From a virus, in IMG/VR virus record IMGVR_UViG_3300046169_000025, positions 1-32,060 of that record: DNA of 32,060 nucleotides. The stretch is one strand, 5' to 3'. The number at the start of each line of letters is the position of its first letter. Position 1 is the stretch's first letter. A model generated the notes under the pieces. The model was not told the DNA's origin. It saw only the letters and a list, made by a program, of their open reading frames with translations, and searched no databases. Positions 1,334 through 27,255 of this stretch are shown here, in pieces. The translations under genes were made by a program, and so were the position numbers.

Positions 1334-4300
1334 TCAATCATCAACCTGTAATTTCATTTTATCATAATGCTTATCTAAGGATATGATTCTTTCAGCTTCT
1401 ATTAATCTGTCACTTAAATCTCTTTCAGACTTGTTTAAATGGGACTTACCTACACCCCCATCCATTTTTCTAGTAACTTCTTCTGAGTAGTTCTTAGCAG
1501 CCGCAGAAGCTCCATTCTGTAATTCTCTATTTGCTATAGCGTTTAGAGCCTCTTCAGTAAGATTGTTTTCTTCGGCTAACTTCAGGAGTTCTCTTTTTAT
1601 TCTATAGTTTTCATCAAATCCTAACTCGTTGAGTTTAATTCTAAATTCCTCAATAGTAAATCTCTTTCTGCTTTTCTCATAGTCTGACTTTCTTTTTTTA
1701 TCAGCACCATCCATTCTTGAAGCATCACCAGGTCTATTTGTTTGAACAGTTTCTGGTTCAGCCTCATTGTTAATTATCTCAACAGGCTCTGACTCTAATT
1801 CTGTTTCATTAACCTCTATAATTCCATCAGAGTTTCTGTTAGGATTATTTATGTTAGCTGAAGTTTTAGAGTTGTTTGGACTGTCGGTAAACTGAGCCTT
1901 AAATGAATCTTCATCAAATATTTCATCAGAAGGCTTATTAGTCTTTATGTAATCAATAGCTTGTTGCATTGCATTAGCTACACTTACTCCAGCTCTTAGG
2001 GCCTTCTGCATTACCACAAGTCCAGCTCTCACTGTAGCTGTAACTAAAAACGGGTCAGCAGGTGATAATAAATCAATATTTTCAATATACTCTTGAATCT
2101 TATTATCTAGTTTATTGACATAAGACTCTGTTACATTAGCTGTCTCAATCTCAGACAATCTCTCTGTGATTTCAGGAAGTCCCTCTACAGTTTCTCCAGT
2201 GCCTCCAACTTCAATAACTTTACCTTTTTCCAAATCATAAAAAGATTCCTGATTGTAAGCTATAGCTAATTGCTCAGCTTGAACAGCATTAGAGGATGGT
2301 ACTAAAGCAACTATATCTAGATAAGACTTTCCAGATAAACCGCTAGTAAATGTTCCTACCGCTAAGTTTTTACTTCTATCTAATATATCCTTATGCTTTA
2401 CCTTAAAGGCCTCAATCTCTTGTTGAGTAAATGTTTCCCCAGATTCTTTTACTAAGGACATTTCAGGGAATATACTTACAGAAAATAATTTCTTTCCGTC
2501 AAGATTTCCTATTTCTTCATTAAATGTAGTTCCTCCTTCTACAGTTCCGTTTTGAGTTCTTTCCATGTTGAGCTCAAACTGCTCTTTGTTTAACTCAGGC
2601 TTATTGAACACATAAGGTGTATCCTTAGTTACCTTTATGTCTTCTTTTAAGTTCTGTGAGTCTGATACAGAAACACTGGTTCTAACTACTTTCTTTCCAT
2701 CTACCCCTAAAAATTTAATCTCACCAGAATCATACATAGTTCTTAGTGCGTCTTCTAGTTGAGCTCTTTCATCACTCTCTACATTATTGACGTAATCGCT
2801 AATACCCTTTTGAATATTAACTGTACTCATGCCTAGGTCAAGTCTACCTAATTTATTGTTATTCTTTCCGTCTACCTTATTAGATAAAGCGTTTTCTATT
2901 TGTTCAGAAACAAACGTATTAGATTCTTCACTAAATTCTACAGTAGTCTCAACATCAACATCTTCAGTTATAACTGTCTGCATGTCAGGAAGTTGATTAA
3001 CTATATCATCAGGAAGTAGTCCTATCTTTTGGTCTGCATATTCTCTTTCAGATAGAGGAACGTAGTCAGGGTCGCCTTTCTTAGGTATGGAGCCATCTTC
3101 TCTTCTTATCTGCTTGCCAAAGTTAACCCAAGAGTTTTGTCCTCTTGTCTCTGTTGTCATAGCTCTTCTAGCCTCAGGACTATACATACGAGAATGATTG
3201 ACCCAAGCGTTCTCCTCACCCTTTGGTCCAAATCCATTTCCTAGCTCTGTATGACCGAAAAAGTCATGGACAAATCTAAATAAGTCATTGACCACCAATG
3301 GCTCTCCATTAATATCGGTAAACTCTGTTTCAGATAGTAAAGGATTTTCTGCTCTCTGCTCTTTAGTAATTCCTTCTTGACCAAAACCAGACTCAGTAGA
3401 ATAGATATACATATGTTTGTTGTCCCTAACATCCTTAATCATCTCTGCTGAGTTAGCGTAAGGTTCTCCCTCACCCTTCCATATTTCTACTTTATATCCT
3501 TTGTTAGACACTAAGTTAAACTGGTCTATAGTTTCCTTAGCCATAGCCTCATAAGCTGCTACAACCTCAGGATTTGTAGGTTCGTGCTTCATAGCATCGA
3601 AAGCATCAGCTATACGTTTAGAATTTTCTATGTCTATCTCTGGAATAGGTCTAGCACCAGTAGGAGTTACACCTAAGCCTTCAGAGTTGTTCTGTAGATA
3701 TTCATCAGCTATCAAAGCTGTTTCTTTTACAGGGTCGTTAAACAGTTTGGAGCCTTCAGTAACTAATATTGCCTCTCCGCCTCTTTGTTTAATAGACTCA
3801 TCATCAACTAAAACTGTTCCTTCAACGAAAGCTTCATTATCAAGTAAAGATAACTGAGTTCCAGGTTCGCTTTGTTTATGTTTTTCTATTAGTAGGTTTA
3901 GTTTAGCTAAAGCCTCTTTTATTTTTTTATCTTGATTAGGGTCTCCATACTTTTGATTAATCTCATCTATCGTAAGATTAAGCATACCCGCATTGAATGC
4001 AGAAGAGAACATAGTACATGTCAAAGCCGTAGCAACTAACTTATCTAAAGCTTCATCACCAGTTCTACCAAATGTTTGCTCCAGTGCATTTTCCCAATCA
4101 AATCCATTTTTAGTTAGATTGTTAAGCATGTCGCCAGAATATTCAGCAATAGTCTCTCCTGCTCCACCGCCTAAAATTCTAATAGAATATGCTCCTATAT
4201 TTATTCCTTTAGCACCAGCACTTTCAAATGCTCTCCTTATAATATGATACGCTTTGGATTGAGGAAAGAATGTCTCAAAAACAGCACCAGCTGTACCCTC

Positions 4301-6541
4301 ACCAACGCCCATGGCTACACTTATATTGTCTGAAGGAACAAGACCGAAAGAAGTAGCACCAGTAAGTATATCTTCTGATAATTTTAAAGCAAATTTACCA
4401 GTAGTTCCATAGCTATTAGCATATGCCGTTAAAGCCTTGTATCTCGATGTTTGTCTTAACTTACCTATCAAAGATAAAGGAATCTTTCTTGTTAACATTA
4501 TCTGAGCCATTATAGGTAAAGAAGTACCTAGACCGCTAGCAACCATATCAGATATATCTGTAGTGGTTTGTTTAATCTGGTCTTCAGTCATCTCAATACC
4601 ATTCTCTTGCATAATCTGACCAAACGTAGCTATGAAATCGGCATCAGTCTTAATATCAGGATTATCAACAAATATATCTAGAAAGCCTTCTCCAAAACCT
4701 TCAGCAAATAATTTTAGATTAGCAAATCCACCCTTATCTATTGAGCCTGGGTCTGTGTTTGTAGCCAAAACTCTAGTAGCTGCTATAAGTTTAGATTCAT
4801 TCTCCTCATATAGTCTTTTGTAGTTACCTACAACTCTTCTAATATTTTTTTCAGATTCTGGCTCTAATCCTAAATATCCAATAGCATCATCTATAGTACC
4901 TCCAAGAACACCCATTCTATCAATATTCTTTTTTTCAAAAGCATCTTTAATAGATATTGGCTGACCTAATAAGTCTTTAAATGTTAATGTCTCAAAATCG
5001 TTCTCTAGTTGTTTTTTAATAGATGAGTACCTTTCATATACAGTCATTAATTCACCTCTATCGGTCTGGTCAAACATTTGATAGTTTAATTCTACCTGTT
5101 GATTAAATGATTGTACATTCTCTTTATTAGCAAACTCTCTATCAATTCTTTCTCCGTCAACATTAAACATAGGTGTAGTTATATTTATACTACCTATACC
5201 ACGTTTTATTTGTCTTAGCTCTTTACGAAGTTCATTGGCGTTCTCAGCTCTAGGATTATTCTCTAATTCTTTTTCTATTTCGTAAGCTCTATTACTTAGC
5301 TTAGCTTTCTGTATATCTTCATCAGTAAGATATTTCTTGGCATTGTCCTCTAAGTCAGATTCAAAATTAAATATAATATTATTAGTTAAATCTTCTTTAC
5401 TGTATTCAGAAAATCCAAACTCGCTAATAGTATTACCAACTATTCCGTAATTATTGTTAGCTCTATCAGAAAGCAACTCTCCTTGATAGTTTAGTAATTC
5501 TTGAGTCGTTAATCCTCTTCCAAATATTTTTGTAGCGTCTTCATTGTAAAAGTGCTCTGAAGGTAAAGAGTATATTATCTTTGCATCCCAGTCCTTTTCA
5601 TTGCCTCTAAATGAATTTAAACTATTGTTTAATTGTATAGTTTTATTTTTATCTATGTTTTGTTTTATTTGCTGGTCTACTAAATCGAACTCAGATTGCT
5701 TTTCTGATAATTGTTTCAATATTTCTTTTGAAACTTTCCCTGGTAATTGTGGAGCCTCAGACATTCTATTATATCTAGACTTCAAACTATCTAACTCTTC
5801 TTTTAAAGTGTTATAAGTTTTGTTGAGTTCTTGCCCTTCACTATCAACATATACAAGAGTATCATCTTCTCCAAATCTTATAGTAGATAGGTACTCTCCG
5901 TCATCTCCTAATCCTACTGGATATGAGTGAACTATAGCATCTTTACCTAAATTTACTTGAGCTGCAATATCATCTTCAGATTCTTTAATTGGCTGCTGCT
6001 CACTGTATACCCTTTCTTTTTCAAAGTCAGGAACTTGAGATGCGTCTACTACAGAGCCATCTTTAAGCCATACTTGTGTTTGTAAGTTGTAATCAAAAAC
6101 GCTTGAATCCGAAGCACCATCTTCCGAGTCTGATGTAGAACCATCCGTATCCGAAATTTTTTTTTTACCGTATTTTTGCTTGAAATCGTTTACAAGAAAA
6201 TTAATATCATCAGAAGACTCGTTATTAGATTCCATTTGAATAACTATACCGTCTAATTTAACTCTGTCTTCCTCGGACAGCATTAAATCTTTAGAATCAA
6301 CTTTAGCATCCTCAGCATTTTTAGTAAGAATATTCATTCTTTCAGTAGACTCAGAAGATAGCTCACCATTATTGTAAGCATTCATTAATTCTTCGTTGTT
6401 GCTAAAGTCTTCTATCTCTTTTTTTTGCTCAAAATCTACTGGAGTATCTATACCGCTTTCTTTTCTAGGGTCTCCCTCTGGAAGTGATTTAATGTACTCA
6501 TTGTATTCTCTTAATCTTTTTTCTTCTTCAGTCTCTTCCAT
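1334..6541 (-). CDS. Giant 1735-aa putative virion cargo / polyvalent protein
   Basis: This is the largest gene of the window. The N-terminal ~550 residues are very acidic and largely helical or disordered. Residues ~640-870 form a glycine- and alanine-rich, partly hydrophobic region containing GGGAGETIAEYSGDML. Residues ~1010-1190 contain FVHDFFGH followed by ENAWVNHSRMYSPEA and TTETRGQNSWVNFG. I recall this histidine-rich block from giant internal proteins of other phages, but its function is unknown to me. Residues ~1340-1440 (FSVSIFPEMS ... AYNQESFYDLEKG ... GGTGE) match another block found in such proteins. The C-terminus is charged. The start codon overlaps the stop of the upstream 596-aa gene as TAATG, and the stop is TGA. 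The likely role is a packaged protein delivered with the DNA; any enzymatic activity is unproven. An RNA polymerase role was considered, but no DxDGD motif was found. Confidence 0.8.
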   Translation of the reverse strand: MEETEEEKRLREYNEYIKSLPEGDPRKESGIDTPVDFEQKKEIEDFSNNEELMNAYNNGELSSESTERMNILTKNAEDAKVDSKDLMLSEEDRVKLDGIVIQMESNNESSDDINFLVNDFKQKYGKKKISDTDGSTSDSEDGASDSSVFDYNLQTQVWLKDGSVVDASQVPDFEKERVYSEQQPIKESEDDIAAQVNLGKDAIVHSYPVGLGDDGEYLSTIRFGEDDTLVYVDSEGQELNKTYNTLKEELDSLKSRYNRMSEAPQLPGKVSKEILKQLSEKQSEFDLVDQQIKQNIDKNKTIQLNNSLNSFRGNEKDWDAKIIYSLPSEHFYNEDATKIFGRGLTTQELLNYQGELLSDRANNNYGIVGNTISEFGFSEYSKEDLTNNIIFNFESDLEDNAKKYLTDEDIQKAKLSNRAYEIEKELENNPRAENANELRKELRQIKRGIGSINITTPMFNVDGERIDREFANKENVQSFNQQVELNYQMFDQTDRGELMTVYERYSSIKKQLENDFETLTFKDLLGQPISIKDAFEKKNIDRMGVLGGTIDDAIGYLGLEPESEKNIRRVVGNYKRLYEENESKLIAATRVLATNTDPGSIDKGGFANLKLFAEGFGEGFLDIFVDNPDIKTDADFIATFGQIMQENGIEMTEDQIKQTTTDISDMVASGLGTSLPIMAQIMLTRKIPLSLIGKLRQTSRYKALTAYANSYGTTGKFALKLSEDILTGATSFGLVPSDNISVAMGVGEGTAGAVFETFFPQSKAYHIIRRAFESAGAKGINIGAYSIRILGGGAGETIAEYSGDMLNNLTKNGFDWENALEQTFGRTGDEALDKLVATALTCTMFSSAFNAGMLNLTIDEINQKYGDPNQDKKIKEALAKLNLLIEKHKQSEPGTQLSLLDNEAFVEGTVLVDDESIKQRGGEAILVTEGSKLFNDPVKETALIADEYLQNNSEGLGVTPTGARPIPEIDIENSKRIADAFDAMKHEPTNPEVVAAYEAMAKETIDQFNLVSNKGYKVEIWKGEGEPYANSAEMIKDVRDNKHMYIYSTESGFGQEGITKEQRAENPLLSETEFTDINGEPLVVNDLFRFVHDFFGHTELGNGFGPKGEENAWVNHSRMYSPEARRAMTTETRGQNSWVNFGKQIRREDGSIPKKGDPDYVPLSEREYADQKIGLLPDDIVNQLPDMQTVITEDVDVETTVEFSEESNTFVSEQIENALSNKVDGKNNNKLGRLDLGMSTVNIQKGISDYVNNVESDERAQLEDALRTMYDSGEIKFLGVDGKKVVRTSVSVSDSQNLKEDIKVTKDTPYVFNKPELNKEQFELNMERTQNGTVEGGTTFNEEIGNLDGKKLFSVSIFPEMSLVKESGETFTQQEIEAFKVKHKDILDRSKNLAVGTFTSGLSGKSYLDIVALVPSSNAVQAEQLAIAYNQESFYDLEKGKVIEVGGTGETVEGLPEITERLSEIETANVTESYVNKLDNKIQEYIENIDLLSPADPFLVTATVRAGLVVMQKALRAGVSVANAMQQAIDYIKTNKPSDEIFDEDSFKAQFTDSPNNSKTSANINNPNRNSDGIIEVNETELESEPVEIINNEAEPETVQTNRPGDASRMDGADKKRKSDYEKSRKRFTIEEFRIKLNELGFDENYRIKRELLKLAEENNLTEEALNAIANRELQNGASAAAKNYSEEVTRKMDGGVGKSHLNKSERDLSDRLIEAERIISLDKHYDKMKLQVDD

Positions 6542-8331: not shown

Positions 8332-9431
8332 TATTTTTTAAATTTGAATTTAGGTTTATAGGAGCCTCCACTCATATACTTTTTAGCAAGCTCAGAGCTC
8401 ATCTTTTCTTGAACAGACTCAGGAAGACTTGAAAAGCCTTTCATTTTGCTAGGAATTTTTCCGCTATCTTTATACATAATGCCTTTCTTAGCCATTTGCT
8501 CTTCAGCTTCATTTTCCATGTGTTCTAGGTCCTGCTTTTCAAACCTATCAAATAACATAGCCATATGATTCATCAATCCTTTCTCATCACCATCTTTCAC
8601 TAAGTCTTGCATTTTCTTAGTATCTTCAGGGTTAAATATAGACTCACCTCCAGTAAGCTCTCCTACCTTCTCTCCATCCTGCTCTACATCAGAAACTCCA
8701 CCCTTATCCATAATATCTATAGGATTTTTATCGTGGTCAAATTTACCTCTACTAACTTGAGGCTTTCCTTTTTTAGGAGTTATCATTCCTTCTTTAGCTT
8801 CTACAGCATCAACAGCAAGTGATGCTCCACCAGTAGCCGCAGCCTTTACAGCCTCTTTACCTACCTCATATGCGTCTTCACCAGCAGAAACAAAAGCTTG
8901 TTGTTTAGCCATTCTAGCTGCTAATGCTGAATCCTTAGATTCTTTTAAAGATGTTTGCATTCCTTTTAGTTCTTCCGTAGCTAATCCTCTTCTAACCACA
9001 TCTTGAGAGCCTTCTTCAGAAGCTTTAGCTTGTTGAGCTGAAGTCAAAGCAGCTTGAGATTTATCCATAGCAGCCAAGTCAGCTGATTGTCCAGAAGCTA
9101 GTATAGCAGAAAGGCCAGCCATTGCTGATTTAGCTCCACCTTTTTGAGCAGCACCCATTGCTGTAGCTTCAGTAGTTTTTTGAGCCTCTTGTTTAGCCTC
9201 AACTAAACTTTGTGATATTGGCTCGTCAACCATCTTTTGAAGAGTGGTAGAACCTTTCATTTGAAGTGAGCTCTTATCGAAAGCATCTATATCAGACTGA
9301 GTTTGAGCGGCCTTTTGTTCAAATTCTTTTTGAAGTTTACCAGCCTGTATACCTCTTACAACATTACCTCCGACACTGTACTTAATCTTTGGTCTGTATT
9401 TCTTTTTAGATTTCTTGTTAGATTTTTTCAT
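8331..9431 (-). CDS. Putative virion cargo protein, Lys-rich ends and Ala/Gln-rich helical core (366 aa)
   Basis: The N-terminus is strongly basic (MKKSNKKSKKKYRPKIKYS), as is the C-terminus (YKPKFKFKK). Between residues ~30 and 210 the protein is a long alanine-, glutamine- and lysine-rich region that should form amphipathic helices. A short conserved-looking block around residues 240-270 reads KVGELTGGESIFNPEDTKK; similar 'TGGE..FNPED' motifs occur in internal virion proteins of other phages. The gene comes first after the muzzle gene, behind its own promoter-like TATATTTG, and is coupled by TAATG to the 596-aa gene. The composition suits a flexible DNA-binding or internal head protein comparable to the smaller crAss-like cargo proteins; this is an inference. 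Confidence 0.65.
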   Translation of the reverse strand: MKKSNKKSKKKYRPKIKYSVGGNVVRGIQAGKLQKEFEQKAAQTQSDIDAFDKSSLQMKGSTTLQKMVDEPISQSLVEAKQEAQKTTEATAMGAAQKGGAKSAMAGLSAILASGQSADLAAMDKSQAALTSAQQAKASEEGSQDVVRRGLATEELKGMQTSLKESKDSALAARMAKQQAFVSAGEDAYEVGKEAVKAAATGGASLAVDAVEAKEGMITPKKGKPQVSRGKFDHDKNPIDIMDKGGVSDVEQDGEKVGELTGGESIFNPEDTKKMQDLVKDGDEKGLMNHMAMLFDRFEKQDLEHMENEAEEQMAKKGIMYKDSGKIPSKMKGFSSLPESVQEKMSSELAKKYMSGGSYKPKFKFKK

Positions 9432-9457: not shown

Positions 9458-12400
9458 TTATTCTTCACTAAGCTCGCTTTTAGAGTTGTTAGAATTAACA
9501 CTATATATCTCTATTGGCTTCTTAGTCCTCTTAGTTAAAGTAACATTCATAAAGTTACCTTTCATTCTATCCCCTTCAGCTTCTCCTGACTTAATAACAT
9601 AGGCAAAACTGCTTGTTAATGCTGAGTTTGCATTTGATGTCAACGTATATGTGGTAGCTCCTATTGATTGTATAGTTCCAATTAGAGTGTGACCACCTGC
9701 TTGACTAAAATATATATTATCTCCTACATTAACCCCATTATTTGGAGTATCCGCTAAAGTAACAGTAGCTGAATCTACAGCTGTAGTTATGTTTCCTAAT
9801 CCAAAAAACTCACTATTCCCAGGTTCTCCATCAATATCTCCAGTAGCAAAAGGAATGTCAGAATACAATAATCCTTCTTTTCTATTGTATGTGGTTTTAT
9901 CTATACTAGTAGAAGATAGATTTGTATCTAATGTCGTGTCGTATGATGTCTTAGTTCCAGAGTTAACTCCATCAACAGTAGTATCTTCAGCAAAAGTACC
10001 ATCCACAGTTAGAGATTGATATGTTTTTACTTTATTAGGTAATCCATTAAAAGGAAACTTTAATTTAGTTTCAAAGGTTTTACCATAAAATGTAGAGTGG
10101 TCTGAGTTTGAGTCATGATGCCATAACTCACCATCTTTAAAAGAGAAAAATCTTCTATTTATCTTACCATACATCTCTGGCTCATAACTATGAAAAGAAG
10201 TCCACCTTTGATTTACTTCTGACCACACTACAGTATCATAAGGAGCAGTAATAGTGTAGACAGGTATTTGCTCTTCAGGTTTTTCGTTTTTTACTTCCCA
10301 TTTAACATTGTCATTGTCATATCTAGAATCATCTTTATAAACTCTAGGAAATGTAATAACATATTCATTGTGCTTAGGATTATAAGCTCCTAATATTCTA
10401 AAGGAATAGTTTACTAAATTAAATTGCTCTGGTATTGTGTGACTTAATGGCTCATCATACCAGTTACTAATATTATACGTAAATCCTGCTGTAGGATTTG
10501 CCTCTCTATACAACTCCGATTTATCTCTAAAATAGTCTAACATGTTAACTTTAGATATAGGTTTAAGCTCATTGCCTTTTAGTCTTAAAACAGCACCTTT
10601 CTTTATGTCTACCCAGTATAATATATTTCCATTAAAATCAAAAGACTCAGGATTTTTACTTATACCGTAGTGCTCTGAAAAAGCTATAGAATTTCCTAGT
10701 ACATTAGAAGATAATCCTACATTTGCGCTACCATCAGCATTAGTTATAATATCTTTATTTATAGAAACCTTATAAGTCCTATCTTCCTGTATGACAATCA
10801 TGTCAGTATCTCTAGAATGTATTTTTTGTATTGAGCCATCAGCCTTATCTAAATCAGAATAACTAAACAATTCAAAAGTGCTTAGACCATTATAATTTAC
10901 ATCAGGTTGAAAAGGCTCAGAATAAGTAATACTAGATTCCTTCAGTTCTTCTCTAGCGTAAGGATTGAATACATTTGGCCTTCCTATGTTTATGTGATTA
11001 GTAGGATAAAAATCATTCAAATAATAATCTTCTACAAAAGAAGTGGTAAATCTAAGTCCTTCAGTATCGTTATTAGAGTTTCTCATTATTCTCCTTTTAA
11101 AGAATACATCACCCTCATCAAAATATCCTCTTGCTGGAGATACCCCAACTACTTGAGTATGAGTCATTCCTCTATGAGCTCTATTTGGTTCATGAGGATT
11201 AGCTATAGTGTGTTTAAACCCAAACTCATAATAAACTCTAGTTGACTCATCTTCAGACTCTTTCAAAGGTCTGTATATTTCAAACAAACCATCACCAAAA
11301 AAGTTTGCTGTGCTGCCTGACGTTGATACATGGTCATAAGTTCCTCCAGATAGTGAATCTATACTGTCTATAGTTATGAAGTATCCTTGCTCCTCTAAAG
11401 GTTCCCCTAGTTCAGTTGAGCCATTATAAAGGTCGTATCCAGTAATAGCAACATCTATATATACGTCTGTATGAGCAGTTGGCGTATCGTAATTCCAAGG
11501 AGAGGTTATAAACCTTATTCTATCCCCCTCAACATAACTATAATCTATTAATGGATTATTTTGAGTTCTATAAGAGTCAGGAGAACCTTTTAAAGATTGT
11601 AATGATAAAAATATTCTAGACTCTCCAGTAGCTGGAATTGTTGATGTAAAAGCTCCAGGACATATAAACTGTATAAACTCATCAACAGATGTATTCTTAG
11701 AATATGCCCAACTCCAATACTTAGCCCACACAGGAGGCTGATGATTTACCGACCAGTCTATTCTGGCCTTTCCGTAGTTGTTATTTTGACCAGGATTTAT
11801 AGATTCGTCAGCATTAAAACCTCTTTCACTAAAAAATTTAACATAACACTTAGATGTTCCATTTTCGCTATCTATAGCTACAGTAGAATTTCTTCCTTTT
11901 CCGTCATAATAAATTATTCCAAAGTCGTGAAAAGCACCAGCTTTAAAGCTACCAGACTTTCCGTCTCCACCGCCAACACCTATAACCTCCATAGCAAAAG
12001 TGTTGTCTTTATTTGCTCCGCTCAACTGTGGGTCTTCATTAGCGAATGTAGGGTTATTAAAGTTTAATGATATACCAGCTTTTTTACCACTGTCAAATAT
12101 CTCACCATCAGCATCTGGATGAACATGCTCTTCAACACATATTAATCTAAATTTTCTACCTTCACTTCCTTGAGGAACTCCATCAATATCAATAAAATTA
12201 TTTTTAGTACTTGATATAAGAGGCAATACTAAAATCTTTTTTTCTGTATCAACGTAAGGACCATGTAACCATGCGTAGTCTCCATCGTCAGGCTTATCCG
12301 ATATAGAGGAGTATTTTGAATAGGCTGCTCCTAATTGCTCAGCTACATAAATCATTTGTTGGTCTAATCCAGAAGAACCATCGGAAAAATCTATTCCAGA

Positions 12401-12520
12401 AGATGCGGTGTTTATTGATTTCTGAATATCAATTATATGTACCTTACTATCTTGAACTATATCTCTTGTAACCAAATTACCTGGATTTTGAACTCTGCAA
12501 GCAAAATCTTGCGCTAGCAT
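9458..12520 (-). CDS. Tail stabilisation/'muzzle' protein, C-terminal part (1020 aa)
   Basis: This holds the larger part of the crAss-like muzzle (tail-tip stabilisation) protein. Diagnostic stretches are FKAGAFHDFGIIYYDGKGRN (residues ~185-205) followed by HQPPVWAKYWSWAYSKNTSV (~255-275). A later part looks like a beta-propeller (AFSEHYGISKNPESF and NILYWVDIKKGAVLRL, residues ~625-660; then NPKHNEYVITFPRV). In related phages these segments follow in one polypeptide the segments encoded here by the two upstream frames. The ATG at 12520 lies 41 bases inside the end of the 546-aa gene and in the +1 frame, so this part is either made from its own internal start or reached by a frame change near 12503-12506. 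The protein would form the distal tail tube and its closing plug. Assignment to the family is firm; independent translation is uncertain. Confidence 0.85.
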   Translation of the reverse strand: MLAQDFACRVQNPGNLVTRDIVQDSKVHIIDIQKSINTASSGIDFSDGSSGLDQQMIYVAEQLGAAYSKYSSISDKPDDGDYAWLHGPYVDTEKKILVLPLISSTKNNFIDIDGVPQGSEGRKFRLICVEEHVHPDADGEIFDSGKKAGISLNFNNPTFANEDPQLSGANKDNTFAMEVIGVGGGDGKSGSFKAGAFHDFGIIYYDGKGRNSTVAIDSENGTSKCYVKFFSERGFNADESINPGQNNNYGKARIDWSVNHQPPVWAKYWSWAYSKNTSVDEFIQFICPGAFTSTIPATGESRIFLSLQSLKGSPDSYRTQNNPLIDYSYVEGDRIRFITSPWNYDTPTAHTDVYIDVAITGYDLYNGSTELGEPLEEQGYFITIDSIDSLSGGTYDHVSTSGSTANFFGDGLFEIYRPLKESEDESTRVYYEFGFKHTIANPHEPNRAHRGMTHTQVVGVSPARGYFDEGDVFFKRRIMRNSNNDTEGLRFTTSFVEDYYLNDFYPTNHINIGRPNVFNPYAREELKESSITYSEPFQPDVNYNGLSTFELFSYSDLDKADGSIQKIHSRDTDMIVIQEDRTYKVSINKDIITNADGSANVGLSSNVLGNSIAFSEHYGISKNPESFDFNGNILYWVDIKKGAVLRLKGNELKPISKVNMLDYFRDKSELYREANPTAGFTYNISNWYDEPLSHTIPEQFNLVNYSFRILGAYNPKHNEYVITFPRVYKDDSRYDNDNVKWEVKNEKPEEQIPVYTITAPYDTVVWSEVNQRWTSFHSYEPEMYGKINRRFFSFKDGELWHHDSNSDHSTFYGKTFETKLKFPFNGLPNKVKTYQSLTVDGTFAEDTTVDGVNSGTKTSYDTTLDTNLSSTSIDKTTYNRKEGLLYSDIPFATGDIDGEPGNSEFFGLGNITTAVDSATVTLADTPNNGVNVGDNIYFSQAGGHTLIGTIQSIGATTYTLTSNANSALTSSFAYVIKSGEAEGDRMKGNFMNVTLTKRTKKPIEIYSVNSNNSKSELSEE

Positions 12521-14117
12521 TTATGTTTACTATTTGATTTTCAGAAGTCTCAATATCACCGTAGTAAAAAGCAAATGTTATTTGAGGGTATCCACTAGTT
12601 CCTCCAGTTTTAGTTCCGCAAAAAGAACTTTGTCTTGCTTCGTCAACTGGAGTCGGATATTTTACTAGTTGATTTATTTGATATGTTTCTCTATCGGTTC
12701 CATGACTATCTTGACCATTGGTATCTCTGTTGTAATTTCCAGCTACATTGAATTGTCCATCATAAGGACCGTATTTATGTCTAGATTTATATGATGAATT
12801 ATAAGGGCCTATTACAATATTTATGTTCGAGCCGCCCTCTTCAAGACCTTTACTAGAAATCTCCCAAGTCTTAGATGCGTCCTGAGCCAATCCTACTAAA
12901 TTAGAAATAGATGTATTTTTTAATGTTATAGAATGAGGACTACCACTAGTAGTTCTATCGGCATAGGCACTAGATTTTTGGTTATCAATATTAGTACCAC
13001 TCCATCCTCCTGAAAGTTGTCCTGAGCTATTTACAGTCCAACCAGGATATATTATTGCTGAAAGCTTATCTGAACTAGTAACACCTCCATATTTTGGTTG
13101 AAGCTCAACATCTATACTTTCTACATCAAATCCCTCAAGGTAATTTGCGTATGAAATTCTATTATCAGATATTAATGTTTGAGTTCTGGCTCTCTTAGGA
13201 ACATTGTCGTAAATCTTTGCTATATCATTCTTGTCAGCAAAAGGATATATCTTGTCATTAAAAAAACTAAAATTAAGAGACTCTTCATTCAAAAATTTAT
13301 CGTAATCATTCTTCACCTTAGCTATTACAAAGAAATCACCTCTATTACCCTGCTTGTCTACATCAAAATCTTTACATATTCTAGCGCAAAGCTCTATGTA
13401 TTCTACCTGATGATTTCCAGCTATATACCTTATATTTATAATATTATCTGAAGAAGCATCAGAGTTCAAGTTAGCAACATTAGATTTCATATCATCAGTA
13501 TGAGTAGCGTCACTTATTCTACTCCATTCTGTTACTTGCTTGTCGTAAAAATGATACCTATACCTAAATTGAAATGACTTTCCAAATATGTTGTTTTTCT
13601 TTATAGAAGAATTTGTATCAAAAGACACCGAAGGTTTTGTGTATGGAGGTCTCTTTTTAACCTCTACGTACTGTTTTTTAACATCTCTAGTTTCTTGATA
13701 GGGATAGTTATTTACGGCTCCAGCATCATTAGGAGTATACATAGAATACGGATAATACTTATCAGGTTCAGCCTTCATTATTTGAGATGAAGCCTCAACA
13801 TATCCATATTCATTTATGACCTTCATTGACTCTTTAGACTTAACCACATTTATTTCTTGAGGTTCACCATATCTATCAGAAGTAAAGTAAAGAATGTCTC
13901 CTATTTTATTTATTTCTGTTATCAAGAAGTTTTCTCTCCATAAAAACAAGTTATCTGAGTCAGACATACAGTCTCTAAATATTTCAGAAACTGTATCTGT
14001 TATTAAATCGTATTCTAATATATAGTGGTCTAAAAGATTAGAGAAAACAAAATAATACATTTTATCTTTATGTGTGTCCTCATATGAACCAATACATTTG
14101 TGAATTTCTCTAGCCAT
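12477..14117 (-). CDS. Tail stabilisation/'muzzle' protein, middle part (546 aa)
   Basis: The protein opens MAREIHKCIGSYEDTHKDKM and continues YYFVFSNLLDHYILEYD, the classic 'IGSYED...i.yfv.....h.Il.yd' block that lies ~200 residues into muzzle/stabilisation proteins. Further typical blocks are ITEINKIGDILYFTSDRYGEP and LISDNRISYANYLEGFDVES (residue ~320). It is beta-rich throughout. Its first ATG lies only one codon (AAA) after the in-frame TAG that ends the upstream 209-aa frame, so the two are contiguous in the same frame. Its last residues (NINASARFCLQSSKSR) look like out-of-frame reading after residue ~538, because shifting by +1 at the TTTT gives ARFACRVQNPG and then the downstream protein. 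It may be a natural separate subunit or part of an interrupted gene. Confidence 0.8.
   Translation of the reverse strand: MAREIHKCIGSYEDTHKDKMYYFVFSNLLDHYILEYDLITDTVSEIFRDCMSDSDNLFLWRENFLITEINKIGDILYFTSDRYGEPQEINVVKSKESMKVINEYGYVEASSQIMKAEPDKYYPYSMYTPNDAGAVNNYPYQETRDVKKQYVEVKKRPPYTKPSVSFDTNSSIKKNNIFGKSFQFRYRYHFYDKQVTEWSRISDATHTDDMKSNVANLNSDASSDNIINIRYIAGNHQVEYIELCARICKDFDVDKQGNRGDFFVIAKVKNDYDKFLNEESLNFSFFNDKIYPFADKNDIAKIYDNVPKRARTQTLISDNRISYANYLEGFDVESIDVELQPKYGGVTSSDKLSAIIYPGWTVNSSGQLSGGWSGTNIDNQKSSAYADRTTSGSPHSITLKNTSISNLVGLAQDASKTWEISSKGLEEGGSNINIVIGPYNSSYKSRHKYGPYDGQFNVAGNYNRDTNGQDSHGTDRETYQINQLVKYPTPVDEARQSSFCGTKTGGTSGYPQITFAFYYGDIETSENQIVNINASARFCLQSSKSR
12503..12506 (-). other. Possible +1 frameshift/indel site (TTTT) in muzzle gene
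   Basis: On the minus strand the sequence is GCA AGA TTT TGC TTG. Dropping one T gives GCA AGA TTT GCT TGC AGA GTT and joins the middle frame smoothly to the C-terminal frame (ARF-ACRVQNPG). Without the shift the middle frame stops nine codons after the TTT, at TAA 12477-12479. A homopolymer sequencing error, a true mutation, or a translational event would all look the same here. Confidence 0.5.
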
Positions 14118-14120
14118 TTT

Positions 14121-14123
14121 CTA
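14121..14123 (-). other. In-frame TAG inside the muzzle coding region
   Basis: The minus strand reads GTA GGG AGA TAG AAA ATG GCT AGA. The TAG is in frame with both the 209-aa and the 546-aa reading frames, which together read as consecutive parts of one family. Most other genes here stop at TAA, two at TGA, and only one other at TAG. The TAG may be a true stop with reinitiation, a suppressed amber codon, or a mutation. Confidence 0.6.
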
Positions 14124-14750
14124 TCTCCCTACGTTAAATTGTTTATTAAAAAAATTAAAATTTCTAGACACCTTATTGTTGTCAACATCAGCTCCAAAAA
14201 CATCAATATTTAAAGAATCTCCATCGTTAGTTAATAAAAAAACTAAACAAGGTAAAGATAATGAACTTTTAGATATTCCTTTTTCAGCGTACTTTACATC
14301 AACACCCCTAGAAAGTAGTTCTACTGCATTTTTTTCAACAAATCCTGCCATCCATTTTTTTAGCTCCTCTACGTCATTAAGATTTACTGAAGAGTATGAG
14401 GATTTATATGAGCCTCCCAACATGTCAAAATTAAAATCTAAGCTTCCAGAGGGTAAAGAGTCAGGTAAAAAATAAACTACACTTTTAGGAACATCTCCTC
14501 CATGACCAGAGTCTGCATGCCCATTGAAAATACCATCTCCAACATATAATATAGGTAATTTTTTTTTATTAAAGTTAAAAGTTATTTTTGTGTTTCCCGG
14601 TATATTCTGAATAACACCTATGCTATTTGAGTCAGAAGACTGATTTCTTATATTTAAAGAGTCAACATAGTCTCCCTCTTTCACAAATCTTTCGTCAGAA
14701 TCTCTATCTAGCCCTCCTATAAAAAGTTTCTTTTCCTGCAAGCCAGCCAT
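14121..14750 (-). CDS. Tail stabilisation/'muzzle' protein, N-terminal part (209 aa)
   Basis: The beginning, AGLQEKKLFIGGLDRDSDER, then EGDYVDSLNIRNQSS and GVIQNIPGNTKI, is the standard opening of phage tail stabilisation proteins ('...g.m..D.derli..geY.dalNi....sd...gtvqN..GN'). The remainder is beta-rich. It ends at TAG (14121-14123), with the codons AAA ATG of the 546-aa frame following in the same reading frame. The piece is far shorter than the >1000-residue family members, consistent with it being only the first segment. It follows the ring protein gene with a 4-bp gap. Reinitiation at the adjacent ATG or partial reading of the TAG would both yield the next segment. Confidence 0.8.
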   Translation of the reverse strand: MAGLQEKKLFIGGLDRDSDERFVKEGDYVDSLNIRNQSSDSNSIGVIQNIPGNTKITFNFNKKKLPILYVGDGIFNGHADSGHGGDVPKSVVYFLPDSLPSGSLDFNFDMLGGSYKSSYSSVNLNDVEELKKWMAGFVEKNAVELLSRGVDVKYAEKGISKSSLSLPCLVFLLTNDGDSLNIDVFGADVDNNKVSRNFNFFNKQFNVGR

Positions 14751-14754
14751 TTAA

Positions 14755-15483
14755 TTATAATTTAGGAGATTGCTTAAATGCTTTTCTAGATGTTTGAAGT
14801 GCCTCAGATTTATTAAATGAGTTCATTCTAGCTCTAGCCAATCTCTTTTGGTTATAAAATTCTTTTCTAGCTAATTGTTTTTCATTAGCGTTTATACCTC
14901 TTTTTCTCTGTATTGATTTCCAGTATACAAATGAAGCCAATGCCTCCTGAGCGAAAGTGTGAACCTGAATATTATCGCCAGTAACTCCACTAGAGCCATC
15001 CGATATATATTCTAATATAATTTTATTCAAATCTCCAGAAACAGAAGAAAACTCTATAGTGTCTCCATCTAAATTCTCTCTATAATATCCATTAGAATTA
15101 TTACCTCCACCAAAACCATATCTAGCATAAATACCATTATCTACATTGTCATAATAGAGACTGTCGTCTCCATCATCAGAAGAAACTGCACCAGTTGTAA
15201 GGTTTAATTTTTCTTTTCTTCCTAGATATTGCAACTCTCCGTTTGAGCCTACTACAGATATACTTACGAATTTAACGTAATCTGTTGGAAGTGTAATAGT
15301 GTTAGTAGATGAATTAACAGTTACCTCAACAGCTTTAATCATTCTTACAGTATCAAAGTTTAATTCTTTTAATCCCTTTAATCCTATATTGTAGTATCTT
15401 AAAAATTCAGCCTGAGTGTTTTTTCCTTCATCAACTAAAAGGCCATTTACTACCTCTTCTAAACTAACAAATTGTGCGCTCAT
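14755..15483 (-). CDS. Ring/connector protein, tail tubular (P22 gp4-like) type (242 aa)
   Basis: The N-terminal region FVSLEEVVNGLLVDEGKNTQ, followed by FLRYYNIGLKGLKELNFDTV and then a strand TLPTDYVKFVSISV (residues ~75-95), is typical of the ring/adaptor proteins directly upstream of the muzzle in crAss-like phages (compare ring protein 1 of phicrAss001). A C-terminal helical, basic tail (KRGINANEKQLARKEFYNQK) follows. These proteins form the dodecameric collar between portal and tail. Spacing is tight: 4 bp to the muzzle gene and 1 bp from the preceding ring gene. The family call rests on pattern recognition and on position. Confidence 0.75.
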   Translation of the reverse strand: MSAQFVSLEEVVNGLLVDEGKNTQAEFLRYYNIGLKGLKELNFDTVRMIKAVEVTVNSSTNTITLPTDYVKFVSISVVGSNGELQYLGRKEKLNLTTGAVSSDDGDDSLYYDNVDNGIYARYGFGGGNNSNGYYRENLDGDTIEFSSVSGDLNKIILEYISDGSSGVTGDNIQVHTFAQEALASFVYWKSIQRKRGINANEKQLARKEFYNQKRLARARMNSFNKSEALQTSRKAFKQSPKL

Positions 15484-15484
15484 A

Positions 15485-16108
15485 TTATCCTATGTTATTG
15501 TTTTTATAATCCTCTTCAGCTCCCTTCATCAATGTAAACACATCTACTAAGTTTTTAACTATAGTGGCTTCCATGTCGGCAGGAATTGGGTAGGTACCTG
15601 TATCAGATAAACTACTAGAAGTAGCAATATAAGCAACACTAACAGTTGCAGAAGTATCTTGATATAAGTATAATTCATTTCCCTGAACATACCAGAACTT
15701 TTTATTAGTACTAGTTACTGTATTGTGATATAAAGGATTATTATTAGTGGAAGAAGTACCTCCACCATAAGGCATTCTAATGTATTCGTTAGAACTTGAA
15801 TAAACTCTAACTATACCCATATCGTTAGGTAATGTTATTGGTTGACTAGGCAACTCTACCTTATTACTAGTTACTGATAAACTTGAATCTACAGTAATAA
15901 AGTCTCCAGTTATTTCTAATTCGGCTTTATTAGTCGTTGTGCTTTTAGTGTAAAATCTATCTTCTATTAATTGCCTTACTAGACTGTCTCTTTCCTGGTC
16001 AACTAAAACCATTATTTCACGAATGTCTATCCTTGTATCATCTGATACATTACCACCCTCAATTATTCTTTGAACCTGTTCAGCTATTTTTCTTCTTGTA
16101 GTTGCCAT
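15485..16108 (-). CDS. Ring/connector protein (207 aa)
   Basis: The protein begins TRRKIAEQVQRIIEGGNVSD and continues DIREIMVLVDQERDSLVRQL, a pattern I know from the second ring protein of crAss-like and Cellulophaga podophages. A middle beta-rich part contains LPNDMGIVRVYSSSNEYIRMP, a strand typical of collar proteins that take the P22 gp4 fold. The C-terminal helix (MEATIVKNLVDVFTLMKGAE) would pack against neighbours. It lies between two other ring genes (3 bp and 1 bp gaps), so the three are almost certainly co-transcribed and assemble together below the portal. Confidence 0.75.
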   Translation of the reverse strand: MATTRRKIAEQVQRIIEGGNVSDDTRIDIREIMVLVDQERDSLVRQLIEDRFYTKSTTTNKAELEITGDFITVDSSLSVTSNKVELPSQPITLPNDMGIVRVYSSSNEYIRMPYGGGTSSTNNNPLYHNTVTSTNKKFWYVQGNELYLYQDTSATVSVAYIATSSSLSDTGTYPIPADMEATIVKNLVDVFTLMKGAEEDYKNNNIG

Positions 16109-17767: not shown

Positions 17768-17799
17768 AAAAAAAAAAGAAGGAGGGGTTAACCTCCCTC
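17768..17799 (-). terminator. Strong intrinsic terminator closing the capsid gene cluster
   Basis: The minus strand has GAGGGAGG, loop TTAACC, CCTCCTTC (one G-T wobble), followed by ten T. It lies 12 bases beyond the stop of the third structural paralog. Confidence 0.92.
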
Positions 17800-26396: not shown

Positions 26397-26677
26397 TATT
26401 TTTTGGCAAACTTTTCTACAAAACCAGCAGTAAAAGATTTCTCTTCCTCTACCTCATCTTCATCTTCTCCGTTGACCTGATTCTCAATCTTCTTTATAGA
26501 AGAAAGTATTTCTTTAGCGTCAAGAAAACATTCTTTCTTAGCCTTCATAGCGTTACGTCTTTTATCATCTTGTAACTCTTCGTCTAGAGGTCTTTTAATT
26601 TCTTCAACAAGTATTTCGTAAGCCTCCAAACCAGCCTGCATAAGCTCTTCTAGTTTTTTGTTTACATCTATACTCAT
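26396..26677 (-). CDS. Small acidic helical protein upstream of terL (93 aa)
   Basis: This short protein is probably all helix (KKLEELMQAGLEAYEILVEE; DAKEILSSIKKIENQVNG) with an acidic linker (GEDEDEVEEEKS) and a Lys/Phe-rich end. It directly precedes the large terminase, joined by TAATG, and is itself joined to the GroES-like gene by TAATG. Its place suggests a packaging partner such as a small terminase subunit, but no helix-turn-helix is visible, so the function remains open. Confidence 0.6.
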   Translation of the reverse strand: MSIDVNKKLEELMQAGLEAYEILVEEIKRPLDEELQDDKRRNAMKAKKECFLDAKEILSSIKKIENQVNGEDEDEVEEEKSFTAGFVEKFAKK

Positions 26678-27255
26678 TATTCTACGACAGCTAATATATC
26701 TATGTTTCGCATTCTTAGGAGCTCCTTTCCTTCTACAGTCATCTGATACTCAGAGTTTTCTGAGAATATAATCTCATCATCTAACTTTGCTCCGTAATCT
26801 ATAATCTCATTATTTGCGTGTCTCAAATAACCTCTAAGCTCTTCTGCTTCTATGTCGGTCTTTATATATATACCAGATTCGGTTTTATAATTTTCTTCTG
26901 GCTCTTTTTTAGGCTCAACAAAACACCAGAAGTTCTGCATAATAATCTCTCCGTCTCTCACAGCACAATATACTTGTCCAGCATCAACCTGAAGAATGTT
27001 ATTACCATCTTCATCTTCTGTTATTTTGTTTTTTTTATCCGATATAAAATGATGAAAGTATATTCTGTCTCCAACTTTTACATCCATTGAGTCGCTAGTT
27101 AAATTTTCTGGTATAACAACAACTTCTCCATACTGCCTAGTATGATTCATTGGGTCATAACTGCTATCAAAGTATATGTCTACACCATTTATATTTACAG
27201 TATCTTCCTCTAATTTATCTACTTTTACTAAAAATCTATCTTTAATTAATTTCAT
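26677..27255 (-). CDS. GroES-like co-chaperonin with two tandem domains (192 aa)
   Basis: The first domain (residues 1-~105) has DRFLVKVDKLEEDTVNINGV, then RQYGEVVVIPENL, VKVGDRIYFHHF and QVYCAVRDGEII. The second (~108-192) has FWCFVEPKKEPEENYKTESG (the mobile loop and following Gly), a short middle, DYGAKLDDEIIFSENSEY and GKELLRMRNIDILAVVE, which closely follows the GroES 'vGdkVlfsky...g.eylimre.DILAvve' end. Cpn10 proteins are usually ~95 residues, so this is a double-length version. Phage co-chaperonins work with host GroEL to fold bulky capsid proteins, which fits the placement just before packaging and head genes. No groEL is present here. Confidence 0.85.
   Translation of the reverse strand: MKLIKDRFLVKVDKLEEDTVNINGVDIYFDSSYDPMNHTRQYGEVVVIPENLTSDSMDVKVGDRIYFHHFISDKKNKITEDEDGNNILQVDAGQVYCAVRDGEIIMQNFWCFVEPKKEPEENYKTESGIYIKTDIEAEELRGYLRHANNEIIDYGAKLDDEIIFSENSEYQMTVEGKELLRMRNIDILAVVE

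Follow-up and report, generated by a model that had tools for sequence, protein, structure and literature searches.

In the crAss-like phage crAss001 the muzzle protein gp44 (PDB 7QOK, 7QOL and 8CKB) forms a hexamer that comprises a ring-joining domain and a seven-bladed propeller and docks on a dodecameric ring (PMC10172136). It is made as one chain of 1371 aa, and the gene of the ring protein gp43 lies immediately upstream. Cellulophaga phage phi38:1, Flavobacterium phage elemo, Tenacibaculum phage Gundel_1 and the isolate ctfjg026 have the gene order and a homologous C-terminal region in common with the locus described here; their muzzles are annotated as one gene, and none of the four has the split near the N-terminus that is the subject of this analysis. 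A muzzle that is naturally made from two adjacent genes is found in phage phi19:3 (gp120/gp121, with stop and ATG three bases apart), where the cut lies near the C-terminal domain as opposed to the N-terminus. This domain is an ORF of its own both in phi19:3 (L003, 9101-9109), where it adjoins the main ORF, and in L046, L049, L051 and L052, the distance being about 450 bases in L046-L052. In Maribacter phage Panino (L001, about 8455-8480) the muzzle changes frame between two annotated CDS with the homology unbroken; that genome was sequenced by Nanopore Flongle and the frame change may be a sequence error. No report of a muzzle split in the manner of the present locus was found in the open-licence literature.

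The DNA analysed here, referred to as the window, comprises all 32,060 bases of one virus record and is probably a genome fragment. It carries three consecutive ORFs on the minus strand, A (14750-14121, 209 aa), B (14117-12477, 546 aa) and C (12520-9458, 1020 aa), which a sequence-only reading had described as one muzzle split over three frames, and the ORF listing agrees with the frames and strand given there. Terminase, portal, SU10-like major capsid protein and ring-like tail genes flank the three ORFs, pointing to the virion block of a podovirus, with Flavobacterium and Cellulophaga phages as its kin to judge from the terminase matches. The source phage is marine; blastn against phages gave no matches, and no relative was found in the bacterial genomes searched. 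Just as the gp43 gene precedes gp44 in crAss001, two ring-like tail genes (14755..16108, minus strand; SU10_adaptor and CrAss_Ring_2, both below cut-off) lie immediately upstream of A. Elsewhere on the same strand, a phage gene at 26677-27255, just upstream of the terminase gene, encodes a GroES-like co-chaperonin whose N-terminal extension is long, and a 1735-aa protein encoded downstream of the muzzle (1438-6541) has only 93% DNA identity to the sibling contig L005, a divergence far greater than that of the rest of the window, with many indels toward its C-terminal end.

Matches to known muzzle families follow in order along the three pieces: the start of crAss_MUZ in A, phrog_14478, which matches both B and C strongly, and crAss_MUZ_C in C. 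Residues 5-64 of A align to positions 2-63 of Pfam crAss_MUZ with a score of 26.4 against a cut-off of 27, and crAss_MUZ_C (PF25729) is matched at 9851..10099 on the minus strand (E 5.5e-5, 24.0 bits, cut-off 27). Both matches fall slightly under the curated cut-off, above which lie those of the relatives L002, L023 and L035, the crAss_MUZ_C cut-off being reached in L002 and L023. Comparison by hhalign with crAss001 gp44, using profiles of relatives, indicates homology at both ends: a profile of twelve relatives matches the C-terminal region (prob 95.8%, E 8.2e-9), and a 12-sequence profile of the N-terminus matches residues 1-68 (E 6.5e-6), although the narrow A1 alignment gave a weak match (prob 2.6%) and the broader A6 was required. 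The window's own chain gave a poor model; for the N-terminal, propeller and Ig region of the L035 homologue (modelled with pLDDT 65) the top PDB matches are 7qol and 7qok (E 1.1e-7 and 2.9e-7). The pieces are not chance ORFs, because relatives have a collinear B-C protein along its whole length. Taken on sequence and homologous fold, A, B and C together appear to be a crAss-like muzzle (tail stabilisation) protein, and the order of the family matches upholds the proposal that they are consecutive blocks of one such protein. Relative to the single chain of crAss001, the first segment is a separate gene, about 150 residues are additional and the main chain is longer.

The two junctions between the pieces differ in kind. 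At junction 1 (14115..14123, minus strand) the window reads GGG AGA TAG AAA ATG GCT in a single frame, with one in-frame TAG followed by AAA ATG, as the sequence-only reading had it; gaps of 1-4 nt are usual between the neighbouring tail genes. The boundary between A and B is kept in all 12 clade contigs that cover it (the window counted, and L018 and L026 being one contig), and B starts with ATG in every one of them. What varies is the stop codon, the spacer and the frame: TAG with a 3-nt spacer in the window, L006 and L027; TAA with a 3-nt spacer in L007, L010, L014-L016 and L025; and TAA with a 2-nt spacer, which places A and B in different frames, in L009, L018/L026 and L019, so that the spacer is three bases long in nine contigs and two bases long in three. 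Separate-gene homologues had been named beforehand as the mark of natural fission, and for A versus B-C they are found in the clade. These comparisons indicate that junction 1 is a real and conserved gene boundary, the product of natural fission.

Given that A and B share a frame in the window and lie three bases apart, and that TAG serves as a sense codon in some crAss-like phages (PMC7886860), it is conceivable that readthrough or reassignment of the TAG yields an A-B fusion. However, this is very improbable for three reasons: first, most relatives have TAA in place of TAG, and every contig provides B with a separate ATG. Second, readthrough is impossible in L009, L018/L026 and L019, because the frames of A and B differ there and the two could not be joined. 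Third, within the 22 ORFs listed for the window, 20 stop at TAA or TGA and TAG interrupts none of them. Nor was a suppressor tRNA seen, there being no tRNA gene found in the 32,060-base window, itself probably a fragment of the genome. Genetic code 15 is ruled out by the relatives with TAA and by those with A and B out of frame. Readthrough is unnecessary for the in-frame members of the clade; a minor A-B readthrough product may nevertheless occur in the window and the eight related contigs in which the frame is shared.

Gene A (14121..14750, minus strand), identified by its crAss_MUZ match as the N-terminal piece of the muzzle, would be made as a protein of its own. Every contig of the clade encodes its orthologue as a distinct ORF, 209-245 aa in length; dN/dS values are 0.22-0.55, and A is under purifying selection. 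The first 60 residues (14571..14750) form the conserved segment that is homologous to residues 1-68 of crAss001 gp44, and the motif they carry recurs at the N-terminus of one-gene muzzles. The remaining part of about 150 aa (14124..14570) is specific to the clade and occupies a site that holds from 0 to about 2000 extra residues elsewhere; it has no counterpart in phi38:1, phi19:3, L023 and L035, and one of about 200 aa in L034. Sequence searches of solved structures with A1 and A2 returned chance matches only. For residues 58-209 no homologue was detected outside the clade, and it could therefore be argued that A is an unrelated small gene that shares just a motif and that B alone is the complete muzzle. 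This is improbable, given that B is without the N-terminal segment found in every one-gene muzzle, that the adjoining upstream gene A has exactly this segment, and that L034 unites both in one ORF.

At junction 2 (12503..12506, minus strand) B and C have 44 nt in common, and the translation runs smoothly through ARF-ACRVQNPG after a frame change in the T run, as had been noted. Compared with every relative aligned there, this T run has one extra base, a difference private to the window's contig. B-C is one open frame in every relative that covers the junction, being a complete single ORF of about 1550-1650 aa in L006, L007, L008/L025, L009 and L018/L026 and staying open up to the contig end in L005, L010 and L027. 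Of particular weight is L027, which comes from a different metagenome and matches the window at 99.89% identity along 10,866 nt. The alignment contains 10 mismatches and two gaps, each of a single base: the extra base of junction 2 and an intergenic one at 17777. In the 14.7 kb alignment with L006, junction 2 is the sole single-base indel that breaks a frame within an ORF, all remaining gaps inside ORFs being multiples of three or mutually cancelling. A 31-mer scan of viral contigs, which may omit the window's own record and near-identical copies, found the shorter form in three and the window's form in none. The ATG at 12520 is present in L005, L006 and L027 but is out of frame there, where B-C is one frame; C is therefore no gene of its own, coding continues into it from B, and the idea that C is a third subunit was rejected, given that relatives offer no separate start for it. 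The main muzzle gene is thus B and C together (9458..14117, minus strand), broken in the window's contig only.

The overlapping frames and the smooth joined protein would suit a programmed +1 frameshift at the TTTT, and yet a programmed site should persist in relatives and none of the eight has it, the 99.9% identical L027 included, which leaves this explanation with next to no credibility. Differences between siblings peak inside the muzzle gene at 11100-11400 and 12000-12900, which are perhaps surface-exposed variable regions. Given that real variants occur in so diverse a zone, the extra base could be a genuine private mutation that breaks an essential tail gene, or a minority variant. This is unlikely for two reasons: first, loss of a tail-tip protein should not become the consensus in a lytic population. 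Second, the change is a one-base difference in homopolymer length at a place where two sibling assemblies break, L005 starting at 12904 and L027 stopping near 12254; contig ends at 12.0-12.9 kb are as expected where strain variants trouble the assembler. The simplest and most likely cause of the extra base is an error of sequence or assembly.

An intron or intein between the parts does not agree with either junction, the first having only three bases from stop to start and the second a 44-nt overlap. Very probably, then, the locus encodes a two-gene muzzle (A and B-C) that arose by natural fission at an insertion hot-spot, with a one-base error or, less likely, a mutation confined to this contig, and unusual translation is needed at neither break. 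The earlier proposals fare accordingly unevenly. That the pieces are separate subunits holds for the chains, of which there are two rather than three; that the sequence has errors is favoured for junction 2, absent as it is from all relatives, and disfavoured for junction 1, a conserved boundary. Passage of the ribosome finds no support at either point, as the second break is private to the contig and the first differs between relatives in stop, spacer and frame, and the treatment of both junctions as one kind of event falls with it.

The site of the split is occupied differently in other lineages. The N-terminal motif is directly continuous with the B part, in one ORF, in phi38:1, phi19:3, L023, L035 and others, and L034, the sister of the window's clade (support 99/96), keeps a single ORF in which about 200 aa are inserted at the split point. 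One ORF with an insert of about 1500-2100 aa at this point is found in L028, L030, L036, L038, L040, L042, L043 and L053, the large inserts across L028-L045 ranging over 1180-2100 aa. These follow the N-terminal segment, ahead of the first propeller blade, and are partly coiled-coil-like; the only Pfam matches to them were coiled-coil-like and below cut-off. The resulting muzzle ORFs reach about 3200-3800 aa (L028, 3340-13986; L030, 3415-14196; L036, 2602-14088; L040, 4462-14052). A second split lineage of seven contigs (L029, L031-L033, L039, L044 and L045) has two ORFs, as does the single contig L041, which is separate from the seven and is probably a third lineage with the same boundary split; the first protein of L041 can be aligned over its full length with the fused protein of L040. 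All eight are split at the homologous point, immediately before the first blade, as in the window, and are placed apart from the window's clade on the tree; their upstream protein is 1181-1526 aa long with coiled-coil-like stretches, against 209-245 aa in the window's clade. The tree, on which several outgroup branches are long, requires at least three changes between the fused and split states, and there may have been re-fusion in part of it. The position of L034 fits an order of events in which the insert came first and fission second.

The first predicted four-stranded propeller blade (13971..14102, minus strand) follows directly after the start of B. In the L035 model four strands are at the homologous place (pLDDT about 81-86), and the blade begins at the residue where B starts in the split phages; the AlphaFold model in which A and B are read through as one chain is poor (pLDDT 49) and was used for strand order only, which is the same as in the L035 model. 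Judged by these models, the cut would fall at a domain edge, such that two chains could meet with the blade intact. Fission very probably occurred between the N-terminal segment and the first blade, at the site that also takes large insertions elsewhere, leaving gene A with the N-terminal segment and the main gene, from 14117 to 9458, with the propeller, Ig-like and distal domains. Translation of A and B would be that of any two closely spaced genes. Homology with the one-chain muzzle suggests that their products come together in the tail tip as two chains, where A would anchor at the ring and hold B, taking over from the N-terminal segment of that muzzle. A more speculative and rather doubtful extension is that twelve copies of A bind the twelve-fold ring, with B forming the six-fold muzzle, or that A is an exchangeable adaptor; if true, the freed copy number of A would explain both the repeated split and the giant inserts at this boundary.

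The two-gene muzzle is a variant of a known machine and not a new kind. Comparison with relatives removes a false case of double recoding, in that one of the two breaks is specific to a contig. An annotation that assumes one muzzle gene will overlook the short piece A. The split site is an insertion hot-spot beyond the IG2 and crass domains described for crAss001, with 1500-2100 extra residues in some marine phages. That separate lineages have split the muzzle at one and the same domain boundary suggests that more than one chain can be used to build this essential part of the tail tip.
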